From Pseudomonas frederiksbergensis (lineage in GTDB: Bacteria; Pseudomonadota; Gammaproteobacteria; Pseudomonadales; Pseudomonadaceae), in NCBI RefSeq assembly GCF_003732275.1, contig NZ_MOBM01000038.1:772679-836678 (forward strand): a stretch of 64,000 bases of DNA, given 5' to 3'. The translations under genes and the position numbers were made by a program. How positions within the stretch are numbered: the first letter of the stretch is position 1; every line of letters begins with the position of its first letter. Shown here piece after piece: positions 4,291-50,743 of this stretch. Below the pieces are notes generated by a model. It saw nothing but the letters and a program-made list of their open reading frames with translations. It was not told the origin of the DNA and made no database searches.

Positions 4291-4319
4291 TTGACAACCC
4301 GGATCATCCAAAACACTAT
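4291..4319 (+). promoter_or_regulatory. Sigma-70 promoter of the attenuator leader
   Basis: TTGACA at 4291-4296, a 17-bp spacer, then CACTAT at 4314-4319. Transcription would start near 4326, which is the A of the leader-peptide ATG, so the leader would be translated from a (near-)leaderless RNA. Confidence 0.6.
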
Positions 4320-4325
4320 CTGCCC

Positions 4326-4388
4326 ATGACCTACACACGCCACATGAACATGATGTGCTCCTCCATGACCGCCTCTGGCGGGCCATGA
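4326..4388 (+). CDS. Attenuator leader peptide, Met/Cys/Ser-rich
   Basis: A 20-codon reading frame, MTYTRHMNMMCSSMTASGGP, followed by TGA. It has no Shine-Dalgarno sequence but starts at the predicted transcription start. Its stop lies in the 3' arm of a CCGCC-TCT-GGCGG hairpin (4369-4381). The GGCGGG of that arm (4377-4382) can alternatively pair with CCCGCC (4428-4433) in the 5' arm of the following terminator. This is the standard layout of ribosome-mediated attenuation. The run Met-Asn-Met-Met-Cys-Ser-Ser-Met suggests that methionyl/cysteinyl-tRNA supply is sensed; that part is inference. Confidence 0.6.
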   Translation: MTYTRHMNMMCSSMTASGGP

Positions 4389-4422
4389 GGTCATGCGTTC
4401 ATAGAATTTGACGTAAAAACCC

Positions 4423-4453
4423 AAGGCCCCGCCAGAAATGGACGGGGCTTTTT
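4423..4453 (+). terminator. Attenuator terminator before the GNAT gene
   Basis: An AAGGCCCCGCC / GGACGGGGCTTTTT hairpin with a six-base loop and a T run. It lies between the leader peptide and the acetyltransferase start at 4489, so it must be read through for the gene to be expressed. Confidence 0.75.
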
Positions 4454-4488
4454 AGTTCTCCGTCTACCGATGGCTAATGGAGAATGAA

Positions 4489-4956
4489 ATGTTCGAGATT
4501 CGACGAGCCACGCATAGCGATGCCCAAATGGCGTTCGACATTCGCCTTCAAGCGATACGGCATCAATGCATCGGTGCCTATACCACGGAGCAAATGCTGG
4601 CCTGGACGGCAGGAGCAGCCAAGGACGGGTATAGCGACCTGATGGATAAACACTTTTATCTGGGTTGTATTCAGGGTGAACCGGTGGCGACAGGAATGCT
4701 TGACCTAGAGAGGAGCGAAATCGGTGCGATCTTTGTGCTCCCGAGCTTTATGCAACGTGGTATTGGCTTGAGAGTCTTGGACTACCTTGAATCCCTGGCA
4801 CGGGATTTGGGGCTGAGGGAAGTCAATCTGGACGCCACGTTGAACGCAGCTGACTTTTACCGGCGCTGCGGTTTCGTTGGTGACAAACCTGCTATTTACC
4901 ATTCGCCCTCCGGGCTTCAGCTGGCTTGTGTTCCGATGGTGAAAGGGCTTTTGTAG
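4489..4956 (+). CDS. GNAT-family N-acetyltransferase
   Basis: A 155-residue single-domain GNAT protein. The acetyl-CoA-binding core is visible as IGAIFVLPSFMQRGIG followed by LRVLDYLESLARDLG, and the C-terminal LNAADFYRRCGF segment matches the beta6-beta7 region of the fold. ATG 4489 is preferred over ATG 4477 because GGAG (4479-4482) is correctly spaced for it. The substrate cannot be read from the sequence. The gene sits alone behind an attenuator leader, and base composition is more AT-rich than the puu genes, suggesting an accessory origin. Confidence 0.85.
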   Translation: MFEIRRATHSDAQMAFDIRLQAIRHQCIGAYTTEQMLAWTAGAAKDGYSDLMDKHFYLGCIQGEPVATGMLDLERSEIGAIFVLPSFMQRGIGLRVLDYLESLARDLGLREVNLDATLNAADFYRRCGFVGDKPAIYHSPSGLQLACVPMVKGLL

Positions 4957-45411: not shown

Positions 45412-45450
45412 AGTGCTTTTTCTTGCGTTTGGACCAGTGACACAAGGGCA

Positions 45451-45485
45451 AAAGAAAAGGCCCTCTCCATCACTGGCGGGCCTTT
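45451..45485 (-). terminator. Attenuator terminator before the isochorismatase-family gene
   Basis: On the minus strand AAAGGCCC...GGGCCTTTTCTTTT forms an eight-base stem with a T-rich tail. The 5' arm contains CCCGCC, which can instead pair with GGGCGGG of the leader hairpin (45524-45530), giving an antiterminator. Confidence 0.78.
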
Positions 45486-45517
45486 GAAGTTCGTGCGTTA
45501 TTGGCTCACGACACCTC

Positions 45518-45577
45518 TCACGACCCGCCCTGGGCGGTCGTGGTTGTGGTGGTCGAGGCAATGCGTGGTTGATTCAT
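45518..45577 (-). CDS. Attenuator leader peptide with six consecutive Thr codons
   Basis: A 19-residue frame, MNQPRIASTTTTTTAQGGS, then TGA. The Thr codons (ACC ACC ACA ACC ACG ACC) run into the 5' arm of a CGACCGCCC/GGGCGGGTCG hairpin (45521-45540). The 3' arm of that hairpin can alternatively pair with the terminator's CCCGCC. A ribosome stalled on Thr codons would free the antiterminator. There is no SD; the promoter at 45585-45613 predicts a transcript starting at or next to the ATG. The layout parallels thrL of enterobacteria but precedes an unrelated gene. Confidence 0.75.
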   Translation of the reverse strand: MNQPRIASTTTTTTAQGGS

Positions 45578-45584
45578 GAAGCTG

Positions 45585-45613
45585 ACAGTATCTGCACGGT
45601 GCCTGGTTGGCAA
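45585..45613 (-). promoter_or_regulatory. Promoter of the threonine leader
   Basis: On the minus strand TTGCCA, a 17-bp spacer and TACTGT, with the leader ATG seven bases after the -10 box. This implies a leaderless or nearly leaderless leader peptide, as at 4291-4326. Confidence 0.55.
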
Positions 45614-45685: not shown

Positions 45686-46612
45686 CTATTTATAATGCTG
45701 CTCAAACACCGCTACCTGCTCCGGCGTGATCAGCTGAAAGGGCACCCAGACATCCGTCTCGACCGGCTCCCCTTTGATCATTTTGATGGCCGCTTGCAGC
45801 GCGCTGGTCGCTTGGGCTTTGGGGTCTTGAAACACGGAGGCTACGAGCATTCCTCGCTTGATGGCCGCCAGGCCGTCAGGCAGGCCGTCGATGCCGACAA
45901 TTGCAATCTCGCCCTTGGCTTTACCGGCTTGCTGCAGTGCCATGGCGGCGCCGATGGCCATCTCGTCGTTGTTGGCAACGATGGCATCGAAGCCGGTGCC
46001 GGCCAGCAGCCAGTTGCTGGTCAGGTCCATCCCTTTGTTGCGCTGCCACTCGGCACTTTGTTGTTCGACGATCTTGATCCCGGGATAGTCCTTGAGCACC
46101 TGTTTGACGCCTTCGGTGCGGTCGTGCGTGGAGTTCTGCGCCAGGTCGCCCATGATGATCGCGATGTTGCCTTTGCCCGCCATCTTGTCAGCCAGGTAGC
46201 GCATTTGCAGCTGCCCGGCCTCAACGTCGTTGGACGCGACCGTGACCACGCCTTTGGGCAGGACGCGTTCGTCCGGATGGCGGTTAACGTAGACCAGCGG
46301 TATTTTCGCTTCGACGGCGGCGCGAGTCATGTTGGCGGTGGCGGCGGTGTCCACGGGCAGGACGATGACGGCATCCACCTTCTGGCCGAGAAAGCCCTGA
46401 ATCTGATTGAGCTGGCGAACCACATCGCCCTGGGCATCCTCGAACTGGATCTCGACGTTTTCCTTCCTGGCGGCATCTTCCAGGCCGCTGCGCACATAGG
46501 TCATGAAGTTGTCGTCAACCCTGGCAATGCTGACGCCGATGCGATAGCTGGCGGCGGCCCATTGGCTGAAGAGGAATAACAGCGTGGCAAAAAGAAGTGT
46601 GCAGCGACGCAT
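45686..46612 (-). CDS. Periplasmic sugar-binding protein, ribose/inositol type
   Basis: A 308-residue exported protein of the RbsB/Peripla_BP_4 family: signal peptide (LLFATLLFLFSQWAAA), then GVSIARVDDNFMTYVRSGLE and VNRHPDERVLPKGVVTVASNDVEA-type segments, and the hinge region ANNDEMAIGAAMALQQAG. It should bind a pentose, hexose or cyclitol. No ATPase or permease genes are adjacent, which is unusual. It is the last gene of the sigma-54 operon read from 48520, or has its own promoter in the 100-bp gap. Confidence 0.88.
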   Translation of the reverse strand: MRRCTLLFATLLFLFSQWAAASYRIGVSIARVDDNFMTYVRSGLEDAARKENVEIQFEDAQGDVVRQLNQIQGFLGQKVDAVIVLPVDTAATANMTRAAVEAKIPLVYVNRHPDERVLPKGVVTVASNDVEAGQLQMRYLADKMAGKGNIAIIMGDLAQNSTHDRTEGVKQVLKDYPGIKIVEQQSAEWQRNKGMDLTSNWLLAGTGFDAIVANNDEMAIGAAMALQQAGKAKGEIAIVGIDGLPDGLAAIKRGMLVASVFQDPKAQATSALQAAIKMIKGEPVETDVWVPFQLITPEQVAVFEQHYK

Positions 46613-46712
46613 GATGGTTTTTCCTTTTTTGTTATGAGTTGAAATTCATCAAGATCAAACGTGAGGGTTTCTGGCGCTCTCTGAATCAAACCCGCCGAGA
46701 GCGCCAGCGTCC

Positions 46713-47501
46713 TCAATCCAGCGTGAAGGCTTGCCGAAAGCGTTCAAGTGCCGCTTCGCTGTCGCCGCTGGCCCAGCCCTCAAGCCCGACGACACCGGTG
46801 TATCCCATGCGGAACAAGGCTTTGGCAATGGCCGGATAATGGATTTCGCCGGTGCCGGGTTCCATGCGGCCGGGGACATCGGCGACCTGGATTTCGCCGA
46901 TGGCGCTGCCGGCGCGCTGGATCAGTTCGATCAGGTTTCCTTCGCCGATCTGGGCATGGTAAAGGTCCAGGTTCATCTTCAAATGAGGGCTGCCCACGGC
47001 CTCGATCAGCGCCAGGGTATCGTCGGCGCGAGCGAAGGGCGTGCCGGGGTGGTCCACCTCGGTATTGAGGTTTTCCAGCAAGAATACCCGGCCTGCGTCT
47101 TCGCCCAGGCGAGCGATTTTCTCCAGGGTCTTGCAGGCGCTCAGCCACATGCGTCCGGTGGTGTGGGCCACGGGTTTGACCGGCAAGCCTTGGTCGCCCA
47201 AACCGGTGCCATGCAGGTTGAGGCTCGGGCAATTCAGTTGTGCGGCGACGGCCAGGGATTCTCGTGCGCTGTCGAGCAGGTGCTGGATGTCTTCGGGGTC
47301 GGTCAGGTTGCCCGAGATGTAGCCGGTCATCGAGGTGAAGTCAGCGCCCGTGGCGACAAGGGCCGCAATGTCTTTCTTCGTCCAGTCCCAGAGTTCGGCG
47401 CTGAAACCCAGCGCGTGAATGCGTTTGACGCGCTCTGTGAATGGCAGATCGAGGAAGACCATCTCGGCACTGATCGCCAGTTTGAACGGTGTGAAACTCA
47501 T
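46713..47501 (-). CDS. TIM-barrel sugar isomerase/epimerase, hydroxypyruvate isomerase-like
   Basis: A 262-residue AP-endonuclease-2-type TIM barrel. Metal-ligand strands are visible in SLNLHGTGLG, VFLLENLNTEVDHPG and MNLDLYHAQIGEGN, with the closing GYTGVVGLEGWASGD. This pattern is shared by Hyi and OtnI-type isomerases. Its start overlaps the upstream dehydrogenase stop by four bases (ATGA at 47498-47501), so the two are coupled. The exact sugar-acid or cyclitol substrate is unknown. Confidence 0.87.
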   Translation of the reverse strand: MSFTPFKLAISAEMVFLDLPFTERVKRIHALGFSAELWDWTKKDIAALVATGADFTSMTGYISGNLTDPEDIQHLLDSARESLAVAAQLNCPSLNLHGTGLGDQGLPVKPVAHTTGRMWLSACKTLEKIARLGEDAGRVFLLENLNTEVDHPGTPFARADDTLALIEAVGSPHLKMNLDLYHAQIGEGNLIELIQRAGSAIGEIQVADVPGRMEPGTGEIHYPAIAKALFRMGYTGVVGLEGWASGDSEAALERFRQAFTLD

Positions 47502-48520
47502 GACTGGGCTCCTTGCACGCGCACAGGTTTGCCCTGCTGGAAGGACTCGATACACGCGCGGGCAATGGCCAGTGCCGCCCGGGCATCTTCGCCGCTGGCG
47601 AGTGGTTTCTCGCCGGTGCGCAGGCAATCGACAAAGTGGTTGAGCTCAGCCACATAGGCATCACGCAGCAGGTCGGTGTCCATGCGCTGAGTGTCGGCCT
47701 GGATGCCATTGGCCAGATAGCGCACCAGGTCAGAGTCATTGAGGCTGCCCATGATCAGCATGCCAGCGCTGCCGAACACTTCCCCTCGAACATCGTAGCC
47801 ATACACAGCCTGGAAATTGGCCTCGGCCGTCGCGATGGCGCCGTTGTCGAAACGGATCGTGACCACGGCGGTGTCGAGGAAGCCCTTGGCCTTGTAGTCC
47901 GGTGCAATCAGGGCATCGGCCATGACAAAAACTTCGACCGCTTCGGCACCGAGATTGAGGTAGCGCAGGGTATCGAAGTCATGGATCAGGGTTTCGAGGA
48001 AAATCACCCACTGCGGCGAGGCAGCCGGGTTGTTCAGCGCCGGGTCGCGGGTCAGCGAGCGCAGCAGTTGCGGCGTACCGATACGGCCGGCGACCACGTC
48101 CAGGTGGGCGGCCCTGAAGCTCTTGGCAAAGCGGCGGTTAAAGCCGACCTGTAGCGGCACACGCGCATCGGCGGCTGCGGCGATGGCGCGGTCCGCCTCG
48201 TCGAGGGTGATGGCCATGGGTTTTTCACAAAACACGCCTTTGCCGGCGCGGGCCGCACTGATCACCAACTCGGCATGGCTGCGGGCGGGGGCGGCGATCA
48301 AGACAGCATCAATTTCCGGGTCATCGAGCAGTTGCTGTGGATCGGTATAGACCCGTTGCACACCCAACTCTGCGGCCAGGCGGGCGGCTTGACCGGGTGT
48401 TGGGTCGGCGATGGCGGCCAGGCAGGCGCCGGGAATGTGTCTGGCGGCAGTCAAGCCGTGAAAGCTGCCCATGCGGCCAGCACCGATGAGACCCAGGCGG
48501 ATGATCTTGGACGTACTCAT
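47498..48520 (-). CDS. Gfo/Idh/MocA-family dehydrogenase, inositol 2-dehydrogenase-like
   Basis: A 340-residue NAD(P)-dependent oxidoreductase. It has LGLIGAGRMGSFHG at the N-terminus, the conserved CEKPMA (Lys) and IHDFDTLRYL (Asp/His of the active site). It resembles IolG and related cyclitol or sugar dehydrogenases. It is the first gene behind a -24/-12 promoter, with an activator gene divergent to it. AGGGAG precedes ATG 48520. Confidence 0.9.
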   Translation of the reverse strand: MSTSKIIRLGLIGAGRMGSFHGLTAARHIPGACLAAIADPTPGQAARLAAELGVQRVYTDPQQLLDDPEIDAVLIAAPARSHAELVISAARAGKGVFCEKPMAITLDEADRAIAAAADARVPLQVGFNRRFAKSFRAAHLDVVAGRIGTPQLLRSLTRDPALNNPAASPQWVIFLETLIHDFDTLRYLNLGAEAVEVFVMADALIAPDYKAKGFLDTAVVTIRFDNGAIATAEANFQAVYGYDVRGEVFGSAGMLIMGSLNDSDLVRYLANGIQADTQRMDTDLLRDAYVAELNHFVDCLRTGEKPLASGEDARAALAIARACIESFQQGKPVRVQGAQS

Positions 48521-48590
48521 GAAATGACTCCCTTTTATTGTTGTTCAATGACTCGCAGCAGGAATGTCCTTGCTGGCGTCAATCAAGGGA

Positions 48591-48605
48591 GCAAGGGCTG
48601 TGCCA
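48591..48605 (-). promoter_or_regulatory. Sigma-54 (-24/-12) promoter
   Basis: On the minus strand TGGCAC-AGCCC-TTGC, an essentially perfect match to the RpoN consensus, about 70 bp upstream of the dehydrogenase ATG at 48520. It would drive the dehydrogenase-isomerase-binding protein operon. Confidence 0.85.
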
Positions 48606-48669
48606 ATATTTAACTCATTGATATTCAAGGGTTTAATTAATATTTTTTGAAAGATGTGTTCATTCCCAT

Positions 48670-48691
48670 GACATGTCTACACTGACATGTC
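48670..48691. promoter_or_regulatory. Tandem GACATGTC upstream activator sites
   Basis: Two identical palindromes GACATGTC at 48670-48677 and 48684-48691, each in the longer repeat TGACATGTCTA, 14 bp apart. They lie 65-100 bp upstream of the sigma-54 promoter and just before the activator gene, as expected for enhancer sites that may also autoregulate the activator. Confidence 0.75.
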
Positions 48692-48703
48692 TAAAACGTG
48701 AAC

Positions 48704-50743
48704 ATGGAAGTGGATCTGACGATGGTGAACCCACAGCTGACAGCCTTCAGCGCGCAAGACCTCGATTACATCACCGCACTCGGTCCTGCGTCGTTGAACG
48801 AAGGACCGATCGCCGAGCTGGACCAGGCTTGGCTGGCTTGCCTGAAAGGGCGCATCGATCGACCTGCCGGGGTCAGGCAGGTCATTTGGGATTCCTGGCT
48901 GCGCAGCGTCAGTGCCGGTCTCGATTCTGAGGATGGCGAATACCGGTTTGTCGCCCCGACCGTTCTGGCTGCAACGCTGGCGGCCAATCGTGCCTTGATC
49001 GCCGCGGCGGCGGAGGTCATGAAGGGATTGCTGGCTTACAATCCCAGGGGCCATATCAATCTGACCGATGCCGCAGGCACGACCCTGTATTTCTGCGGCC
49101 TGGACCTTACGCCTGTGGGCAGTCGACTGCTGGAGTCGGTGCAGGGCACCAACTGCACCGGGCTGGCGATTGCCGAAGATCGCTTGGTGTATGTGCTGGC
49201 CGAGGAAAACTTCGGGATCGGTCTGCGTCGCCGGCGCATGCATTGTGCCGCCGCGCCGATCCGGGATGCGCAGGGCAGGACGCTGGCCATGCTGACCCTG
49301 ACCGCCGAGCCGGGGTGGTTTCATTTCCATACGCTGGGCACCGTCCAGGCGGCGGCCGAAGCGGTCTCGCGGCAGATGGCGCTGCAAGCTCTGCTGGAAG
49401 AACAGCAAACCGTCCTCGAAGTGCTCAACGAGGGGCTCGTGGTGCTGGATGAGCGGGGCTGCATCAAGGCGCTCAACCGCTATGCCCGCCAATTGTTTCG
49501 TGTCGGCCGGGACCTGTTGGGCAGCCCGTTCCAGCGTCTGGGCCAGAGCGAACTGACCGATGAGATTCTGCTGCGCGGCGGGGAAGGGCAGCAGTATGAA
49601 GGGATAAGAGATCTGGATTGCACGTTTGAGCTGCATGATCGCAGCCTCTTGGCGTGTCTGGTGTCGGTGTGCCCACTGGAGCAGGGTGGGCGCATTGTTT
49701 CGTTGCGCGAGAACCGGCGCATCCGGGAAATTACCCGGCGAATAATCGGCACTCAAGCCAGCTACACCTTCGAGACCATTCAAGGCAGTTCGCGAGCCAT
49801 ACAGGACGCGTTGCACCTGGGGCGGATTGCCAGTCGCAGTGACTCGACCACGCTGATCCTCGGTGAGAGCGGTACCGGCAAGGAGCTGTTTGCCCAGGCG
49901 ATCCATAACGCCAGTGAGCGTTGCAGCGGTCCGTTTGTGGCGGTCAATTGCGGGGCCATTCCGCGAGATCTGGTGCAGAGTGAACTGTTTGGTCATGTCG
50001 AGGGTGCCTTTACCGGATCGGCCCGTGGAGGCTCTGCCGGGAAGTTCGAATTGGCCGATGGCGGAACGATTTTCCTCGACGAAATCGGTGACATGTCTTT
50101 CGATGCCCAGGTCAGCCTGCTGCGCGTTTTGCAAGAAGGTGAGGTGACTCGCGTGGGCGCGAAAAAATCCCGGCAAGTGGATGTACGCATCATCGCCGCC
50201 ACCCACCGCAACCTGAGCCAGGCGGTTGCCGATGGCGCGTTCCGTGAGGATCTTTACTACCGGCTCAATGTGCTGAACCTGACGGTTCCGCCGTTGCGGA
50301 TGCGCCGGGAAGATGTTCCATTGCTGGCGCGACATTTTCTCAATCGTTGCACCCGGTCGTTGCGCAAATCGGTGCAGGGCATCTCGCCAGAGGCGTTGGA
50401 TATTCTTTCGGCGTACAGCTGGCCGGGTAATGTTCGCGAGTTGGAAAACACCATCGAGCGCGCGACCAATCTGGCGGTGACCGAACTGATTCAGCCAGCT
50501 GATCTACCGCTTGAAATCAAGCAAAGGCTGCGTCAGTCGACGCCGGGAAGTGTGCCCGAGCCCCGGGCTGCCCTGGACCTTGGCACCCATGAAATGAATG
50601 CGATCATCGCGGCCCTCAGGGATACCCGCGGCAACATCCGCCTGGCCGCGAGGCAGCTGAATGTTTCTCGCGGCGGGTTGTACAACAAGATGAATCGGTT
50701 CGGGTTGAGCGCCGATGCTTTCCGTTCGGAACCCAACCTCTGA
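48704..50743 (+). CDS. Sigma-54-dependent transcriptional activator, AcoR-like (GAF-PAS-AAA-Fis)
   Basis: About 679 residues. N-terminal GAF-like sensor (about 70-220), PAS-like segment (about 235-340), AAA+ domain with Walker A GESGTGKE, the sigma-54-contacting GAFTGS and Walker B GTIFLDEIGDM, then a Fis-type helix-turn-helix (IRLAARQLNVSRGGLYNKM). It activates RpoN promoters, most likely the one at 48591. The start is uncertain: GTG 48698, ATG 48704 or ATG 48722. The lack of a receiver domain means it senses a ligand directly. Confidence 0.92.
   Translation: MEVDLTMVNPQLTAFSAQDLDYITALGPASLNEGPIAELDQAWLACLKGRIDRPAGVRQVIWDSWLRSVSAGLDSEDGEYRFVAPTVLAATLAANRALIAAAAEVMKGLLAYNPRGHINLTDAAGTTLYFCGLDLTPVGSRLLESVQGTNCTGLAIAEDRLVYVLAEENFGIGLRRRRMHCAAAPIRDAQGRTLAMLTLTAEPGWFHFHTLGTVQAAAEAVSRQMALQALLEEQQTVLEVLNEGLVVLDERGCIKALNRYARQLFRVGRDLLGSPFQRLGQSELTDEILLRGGEGQQYEGIRDLDCTFELHDRSLLACLVSVCPLEQGGRIVSLRENRRIREITRRIIGTQASYTFETIQGSSRAIQDALHLGRIASRSDSTTLILGESGTGKELFAQAIHNASERCSGPFVAVNCGAIPRDLVQSELFGHVEGAFTGSARGGSAGKFELADGGTIFLDEIGDMSFDAQVSLLRVLQEGEVTRVGAKKSRQVDVRIIAATHRNLSQAVADGAFREDLYYRLNVLNLTVPPLRMRREDVPLLARHFLNRCTRSLRKSVQGISPEALDILSAYSWPGNVRELENTIERATNLAVTELIQPADLPLEIKQRLRQSTPGSVPEPRAALDLGTHEMNAIIAALRDTRGNIRLAARQLNVSRGGLYNKMNRFGLSADAFRSEPNL

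Follow-up and report, generated by a model that had tools for sequence, protein, structure and literature searches.

In the window, i.e. the whole analysed DNA stretch of 64,000 nucleotides from Pseudomonas frederiksbergensis, the gene of an isochorismatase-family cysteine hydrolase is preceded on the minus strand by a promoter-like sequence, a short leader reading frame with six consecutive Thr codons, a hairpin (P1) and an intrinsic terminator (Table 1). P1 spans the last Thr codons and masks region 2, which can alternatively pair with region 3 in the 5′ arm of the terminator. The preliminary description had listed a 17-spaced promoter, a 19-residue frame with six Thr codons, a leader hairpin, a GGGCGGG/CCCGCC pairing and a terminator about 40 bp before the hydrolase gene. 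All of these were found in their places, the distance from the T run to the hydrolase ATG (45411) being 38 nt by sequence. From the end of the −10 box to the leader ATG there are 7 nt, and no Shine-Dalgarno site was found upstream of this ATG. Six ACN codons followed by GC occur once in the window and in none of 100 shuffled versions.

Table 1. Features of the two leaders and their target genes (positions of the window, the first letter being position 1)
Feature	Positions	Strand	Remarks
Promoter TTGCCA-17-TACTGT	45585..45613	-	By sequence; −35 TTGCCA 45613-45608, −10 TACTGT 45590-45585
Thr leader ORF MNQPRIASTTTTTTAQGGS*	45518..45577	-	19 codons, ATG 45577, stop TGA 45520-45518
Six Thr codons ACC ACC ACA ACC ACG ACC	45536..45553	-	By sequence
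Hairpin P1 (1:2) CACG-A-CCGCC / GGCGG-GT-CGTG	45519..45542	-	Sequence and covariation
Region 2 GGCGGG	45524..45529	-	Predicted partner of region 3 (antiterminator) once P1 is blocked
Region 3 CCCGCC	45480-45475	-	Within terminator 5′ arm
Intrinsic terminator AAAGGCCC...GGGCCTTTTCTTTT	45450..45485	-	By sequence; apical CCA-GNRA-TGG, T tail
Second hairpin CTTGTGT / ACGCAAG	45422..45446	-	3′ of terminator; over hydrolase ribosome-binding site
Isochorismatase-family cysteine hydrolase, 172 aa	44893..45411	-	PF00857, E 1.6e-32
Second attenuator, Met codons, same scaffold	4291-4453	+	Found with covariance model R1 (match 4318-4467)
Met-leader promoter TTGACA-17-CACTAT	4291..4319	+	6 nt to ATG
Met-leader ORF MTYTRHMNMMCSSMTASGGP*	4326..4388	+	ATG 4326, Met codons
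Met-leader P1 CATG-A-CCGCC / GGCGG-GC-CATG	4364..4387	+	Sequence, covariation
Met-leader terminator	4423..4453	+	By sequence
GNAT acetyltransferase	4489..4956	+	PF00583, E 6.6e-12

A generic promoter and terminator scan of the window flagged neither the promoter nor the terminator of the Thr leader; according to our reading, the hexamers lie under its cut-off, and it accepts terminator loops of up to 8 nt, whereas the one here has 14. Also, the bulk fold of the 161-nt leader stretch is ordinary (z −0.72). Since both the bulk fold and the generic scan are inconspicuous, the case rests on comparison and not on bulk energy. At 45660-45637 (minus strand), upstream of the promoter and at the start of our DNA query, there are 24 bases, perhaps a dispersed repeat, of which copies 92–100% identical are present in five or more further Pseudomonas genomes (G135, G046, G083, G123, G129).

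The hydrolase residues D8, K81 and C114, which we take as the catalytic triad typical of the family, are conserved without exception in an alignment of 19 relatives. Its AlphaFold model has a pLDDT of 88, with TMq values of 0.74–0.81 for the best 50 PDB matches, while the closest solved structure of the GNAT protein is 2fiw (TMq 0.88); fold searches assigned both proteins at the superfamily level only. Beside the hydrolase gene, at 45686-50743, genes for a sugar-binding protein, a TIM-barrel isomerase, an inositol-dehydrogenase-like protein and a sigma-54 activator are located.

The ribosome-binding site of the hydrolase (45425-45416, minus strand) reads CAAGAAAAAG, and CAAGGAAAAG in close relatives such as L002, L003 and L032. 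For the hairpin over this site, the mean longest helix was 7.4 in 88 hydrolase leaders vs 5.8 in shuffled sequences, and 6.2 vs 4.8 in 20 GNAT leaders, with hairpin sequences that differ from group to group. The apical CCAGNRA of the terminator (45476-45470) is complementary to a heptamer in this next hairpin (45440-45434, minus strand), in 7 of 7 positions in 48 of the 88 hydrolase leaders. The two covary, as none of 500 loop swaps matched the observed mean in a statistic that ignores kinship.

Conservation of the leader and its codons

Searching 149 Pseudomonas genomes at the DNA level revealed related leaders. By protein search (E ≤ 1e-30), the hydrolase was found at 59 places in 55 of 149 genomes, two mirror copies of the own genome included, and a covariance model (R1), for which 38 leaders had been used, detected the leader within 150 nt upstream at 57 of the 59. 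At the two remaining places the leader is decayed (L024, in G015) or the upstream DNA has been replaced (L235, in G079:C35). Among the close loci L031-L066 from Pseudomonas and Delftia tsuruhatensis, 35 of 36 carry the leader, the one without being L056. None of the 13 distant relatives (L067-L079) has a Thr run in the 230 nt inspected 5′ of the match, a stretch that is mostly coding in L078 and L079. An in-frame Thr-rich leader was present in 109 of 111 distinct upstream regions, a set which is biased because it was partly fetched by the leader itself; 100 of the 109 were called by script and nine, out of 11 flagged regions, by eye. Orthologous loci lacking the Thr run or the terminator, which the preliminary description had named as the finding that would speak against an attenuator, amount to few exceptions (L024; L125, which has no Thr run; L235; L056), an outcome that speaks for the attenuator.

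Matches to R1 exist in at least 137 of 298 Pseudomonas genomes for both target classes. Across 274 genomes of the class, the model matched the own genome and one other (G421); this match (E 0.0014), the only one outside the genus, follows a Gly/Met-rich reading frame, presumably the end of groEL, and was taken as a chance hit. Where no hydrolase was found downstream, the leader decays: in L285, L286 and L289 the ATG is out of frame and in L308 the Thr codons are changed, and all four have kept the terminator. The own genome has several leader copies, among the matches listed those on contig C1 and its mirror copy, on C14 and on C17. The window is part of C1 (1,421,354 nt), on which the coordinates of two leader pairs are mirror images of each other and add up to 1,421,355. 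These mirror pairs, the two places at which the symmetry was checked, are as expected for a full-length palindrome and probably an assembly artefact that would explain the contamination value of 9.64%.

For the analysis of the codons, 105 distinct Thr leaders before hydrolase genes were used, a set biased towards leaders, as it was partly gathered by leader searches. Counted backwards from the Ala codon, Thr occupies codons −1 to −6 in 104, 102, 100, 97, 80 and 87 of the 105, respectively. Codons −4 to −6 lie outside P1. At codon −4, the 97 Thr codons comprise 60 ACC, 18 ACT, 11 ACA and 8 ACG, and among 104 leaders base 1 is changed in 4 and base 2 in 6, whereas base 3 deviates from its modal state in 40. 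The contrast is weaker at codon −5 (bases 1 and 2 changed in 24 and 20, base 3 in 25; n=104) and at codon −6 (16 and 14 vs 30; n=104), where, as at −5, Arg is the commonest replacement of Thr. Furthermore, the Thr run lengthens in whole codons, up to nine Thr in L108. Judged by these alignments, the leader Thr codons are selected as codons, with synonymous drift outside P1. The sensing of threonine put forward earlier is supported by the retention of Thr in 97–104 of 105 leaders at codons −1 to −4.

Sister leaders, promoter spacing and base pairing

In total, 135 distinct leaders were kept: 105 with Thr codons before the hydrolase, 29 with Met codons before GNAT genes and one with Thr codons before an MFS pump gene. 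Codon and target gene are thereby associated. In the 29 Met leaders, Met is found at codons −2, −6 and −7 in 28, 27 and 26, respectively; this count includes L175/L282 (G192), a Met leader which has lost its stop codon and precedes a different reading frame, taken by us for another acetyltransferase. Protein search located the GNAT protein at 46 places in 42 of the 149 genomes, and as judged by eye 23 of the 46 have the Met leader and 23 have none. With 57 of 59 places for the hydrolase vs 23 of 46 for GNAT, the tie of the leader to the hydrolase is the firmer one. L287 and L288 are Met leaders without an intact GNAT gene, and L315 is a remnant of a Met leader. There are two crossovers between the classes: the GNAT leader L210 has Thr in place of Met at codon −2, and the hydrolase leader L269 (STTTPTMTATGGP) has Met at this codon and is a possible intermediate between the Thr and Met classes.

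The Thr leader before the MFS gene (MNIFFVTTTTTTTTTAIGGPRGGCAL) was found in two identical copies (L236, L237) on two contigs of G079. The encoded pump is of the efflux type and distantly related to MdtH/YdeE, its gene is present in one of the 149 genomes (E 1e-60), and no obvious biosynthetic cluster was seen in the ORF list of its surroundings. What the preliminary description had overlooked is the second leader of the window, with its Met codons, as well as the Thr-MFS case and the short distance between −10 box and ATG, which makes a missing 5′-UTR probable.

Other target classes were searched with R2 on 25 and 80 genomes, with stricter filters and thus a loss of weak matches for the 80, and with two sequence patterns on 296 and 199 genomes. 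Among the loci examined, the intact cases belong to the Thr-hydrolase and Met-GNAT classes, plus one Thr-MFS case. We rejected L309 (57.8 bits), as it has nothing but the terminator part in common with the scaffold and is followed by a gene that, judged by eye, resembles a transposase gene. The weak matches judged were L310-L314 and L290-L306. Below about 35 bits, L310 seems to be what is left of a hydrolase leader, while L311-L314 and 16 of the 17 matches L290-L306 are plain terminators with no preceding Thr or Met run (L298 was wrongly cut and left unjudged). Six pattern matches (G020, G119, G121, G133, G182, G184) are unlike the scaffold in appearance.

The best −10 hexamer ends 6, 7, 8 or 9 nt before the ATG in 52, 34, 7 and 12 of the 105 hydrolase leaders, respectively, and of the 29 Met leaders, 27 have a gap of 6 nt and two a gap of 3 nt. 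Taken together, 132 of 134 leaders have a −10 box ending 6–9 nt upstream of their ATG, a result favoured by the choice of the ATG, which was picked in frame with a −10-like word in mind. An alignment of 44 leaders displays the same layout of promoter and ATG. The −35/−10 score of the leaders is 10.1 vs 6.0 (sd 0.1) after shuffling, and a Shine-Dalgarno-like 4-mer at positions −20 to −4 occurs in 6 of 135. As the usual distance from a −10 box to the transcription start is some 7 nt, this spacing puts the predicted start at or next to the ATG, and the leader mRNA is probably leaderless, with little or no 5′-UTR.

For base pairing, a structure alignment of 50 leaders of all classes was used, in which P1 is paired in 91.3% of cells. 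In P1, the middle base of codon −2 forms a C-G pair in 33 leaders, a U-A pair in 12 and a U-G pair in two, and it is unpaired in three. The 12 U-A and two U-G cases are Met leaders (ATG), and 32 of the 33 C-G cases are Thr leaders (ACG), the remaining one being L210. Hence, the change between ACG and ATG is compensated on the other arm of P1, perhaps in a single event. Three statistics, all of which ignore kinship, gave different outcomes: the covariation score of the whole structure was matched by none of 500 shuffles, the number of pairs with both sides changed was reached by 12 of 500, and for further pair types 375 of 500 shuffles reached the observed value, so that the latter two do not clearly stand out from the shuffles. 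In the terminator, 38 of 50 leaders lack the pair of columns 130-152, since two terminator types exist which are one base apart in register. The putative antiterminator GGCGGG/CCCGCC is paired in 96% of cells, and no covariation was found for it in the leader alignment.

Proposed mechanism and role

Folding of the leader RNA with and without a block over the Thr codons had been suggested as a check in the preliminary description. It came out as expected for the leader of the window, and at equilibrium a minority of its relatives switch. In the window, the probability of the terminator is 1.00 for the naked Thr leader, 0.08, 0.01 and 0.01 with the A site at Thr11, Thr12 and Thr13, and 0.95–1.00 with the A site at every other codon. 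At equilibrium, A sites at codons −4, −3 and −2 bring the probability below 0.5 in 23–29% of 104 Thr leaders, those at −5 and −6 do so in 1%, and the other A sites tested between −8 and +5 in no leader. Two leaders never switch in this model, L169 and L083, the latter being of the P. fluorescens type (GCGGA) with a weaker antiterminator. Most Thr leaders consequently need a kinetic argument. Before the 3′ arm of the terminator is present, the mean sequestration of region 3 in the 104 leaders is 0.92–0.93 for A sites −6 to −2, 0.61 at −1 and 0.27–0.48 from the Ala codon on. Stalls well 5′ of the Thr run also sequester region 3 (0.82–0.85 at −8 and −7), and naked leaders reach 0.50 on average, so that a clean off state is not proved by the fold alone. 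The hydrolase leaders showed a swing of more than 0.5 in 54% of cases, compared with 28% for the GNAT leaders and 11% for 110 control terminators, and a strict test (maximum >0.8, naked <0.3) was passed by 12%, 17% and 2%, respectively. For the Met leader of the window, the terminator probability is low at most early A sites and 0.98 at Met14; a codon-specific switch was not reproduced for it in the fold model.

Very likely, the Thr leader is a ribosome-mediated transcription attenuator with an exchangeable codon. This attenuator logic, proposed earlier from the sequence, is backed by the conservation, the codon-level selection, the covariation of P1 and the blocked folding of the window leader. 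We infer the following course, from the leaderless start via the stall and its kinetics to the regulation in the cell. RNA polymerase would start at or 1–2 nt from the leader ATG, and a ribosome would load onto the leaderless mRNA. With charged Thr-tRNA, it would reach the stop codon and cover region 2, thereby letting the terminator form and keeping the hydrolase off; in an untranslated leader P1 would mask region 2, with the terminator forming as well. If Thr-tRNA is scarce, the ribosome would wait with the ACG codon (−2) in the A site and cover only the 5′ arm of P1. The downstream footprint of a ribosome is 12 nt and, with the A site at codon −2, stops exactly before region 2. Free region 2 (GGCGGG) could then pair with region 3 (CCCGCC) before the 3′ arm of the terminator exists, and polymerase would continue into the hydrolase gene. 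The scaffold appears to be modular, with Met codons taking the place of the Thr codons before the GNAT acetyltransferase.

That the element merely terminates an upstream gene and bears a Thr-rich frame by chance is extremely improbable. Similar apical sequences do occur elsewhere in the genus (e.g. L313) and the bulk folding energy is ordinary, but the leader goes with the hydrolase and not with the upstream gene, possesses its own promoter-like sequence and is selected at the codon level; a chance terminator combined with a chance ORF is contradicted by the co-occurrence with the hydrolase (57/59) and the codon statistics. A sensor of translation stress in general would respond to any slow elongation, as caused by ribosome-targeting drugs, and use the Thr or Met codons for tuning the pause only. 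Leader ORFs sensing such drugs control resistance or stress genes according to the accessible parts of two articles (PMC4335068, PMC12121999), and a simple fold model gives read-through for stalls at several upstream codons. Nevertheless, we consider such a sensor quite unlikely, because one amino acid per target is kept near-completely while synonymous codons drift, which argues for a tRNA species as the signal.

Sensing of a true threonine shortage is a further alternative, in which the enzyme, as an amidohydrolase, would act on N-acyl, N-carbamoyl or amide derivatives and so release threonine or one of its precursors. It would suit a fold near those of maleamate, biuret and carbamoylsarcosine hydrolases under the control of Thr codons, and classical attenuators restore their own amino acid. 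The Met version, however, precedes an acetyltransferase, which is not expected to free methionine, a Thr version precedes an MFS pump, and no metabolic neighbour with wide recurrence was found in 36 loci. Such salvage is therefore rather unlikely as the general role, and possible for the hydrolase alone. The preliminary description had correctly stated that the controlled gene, encoding a PF00857 hydrolase, is not one of threonine biosynthesis; its suggestion of amide or ureide hydrolysis as a metabolism found no support, as every gene family apart from the hydrolase occurs in at most 8 of the 36 loci and sister leaders stand before GNAT and MFS genes.

Two small-molecule-modifying enzymes and a pump under amino-acid-specific leaders suggest the removal of compounds that block tRNA charging. 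The attenuator may thus serve as an alarm when compounds such as amino-acid antimetabolites or synthetase inhibitors deprive a single tRNA species of its amino acid, and induce a stand-alone modifying enzyme or pump, a role which we hold to be plausible at slightly below an even chance. More tentatively, Pseudomonas might possess a modular tRNA-charging alarm consisting of a leaderless scaffold with exchangeable Thr and Met codons, by which a poison induces the enzyme removing it. Its targets would be stand-alone genes with a role in detoxification (those of the Cys hydrolase, the GNAT protein and the MFS pump), with obafluorin as a candidate for the Thr class. As described in the accessible part of one article, ThrRS is inhibited by obafluorin, a compound of P. 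fluorescens which also exists in a form whose β-lactone is hydrolysed (PMC10619133); that the hydrolase acts on obafluorin is a guess. If true, chemical defence would be linked to tRNA charging by a conserved attenuator that guards single-gene hydrolases and acetyltransferases as well as a pump, and both the agents that empty Thr-tRNA or Met-tRNA in soil pseudomonads and the targets of the enzymes would become testable. The codon change with its compensating hairpin change also represents a natural case of a specificity shift in an attenuator.

Relation to known systems

Leader-peptide attenuators are textbook control elements of amino-acid biosynthesis. No description of the present leader was found in the literature searched, which was largely that outside subscription journals. 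At gathering score no Rfam family, T-box included, matched the leader, with weak matches appearing only at a lax E-value. Compared with the Thr_leader family RF00506 it reached 15.2 bits (E 2), below the gathering score of 55, and it does not share the family's trait of a threonine biosynthesis target, its gene being a PF00857 hydrolase with no recurrent neighbour. The sole Rfam match of the window is a C4 antisense RNA (RF01695, 13547-13634, minus strand, 78.6 bits), which we take to be a phage-type element. The kind of control, leader-peptide attenuation, is thus already known, and the scaffold itself is absent from Rfam.

With the thr, his, leu and trp attenuators of enterobacteria the leader has in common a leader peptide rich in one amino acid, a codon hairpin, a terminator and, as predicted here, an antiterminator. 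These precede biosynthesis genes, whereas the Pseudomonas leader stands before a stand-alone hydrolase (or GNAT or MFS) gene and is probably leaderless. A leader ORF located 0–1 nt from the 5′ end is described for Sinorhizobium meliloti trpL and Corynebacterium glutamicum ilvBNC in the accessible parts of the respective articles (PMC7298713, PMC11857589). The position of the ORF at the 5′ end, predicted in Pseudomonas, is the likeness to these systems, which belong to other bacterial groups, use Trp or Val/Leu-type codons and have biosynthetic targets. Induction of genes, efflux included, by a stall in a leader ORF is also known from mef/mel (PMC4335068) and from E. coli toiL before topAI-yjhQ (PMC12121999), as far as the accessible parts of these articles cover it. 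According to the same parts, both sense drug-bound ribosomes, and toiL works on translation and Rho termination. Unlike them, the Pseudomonas leader would read an uncharged tRNA species through the identity of its codons and act through an intrinsic terminator.
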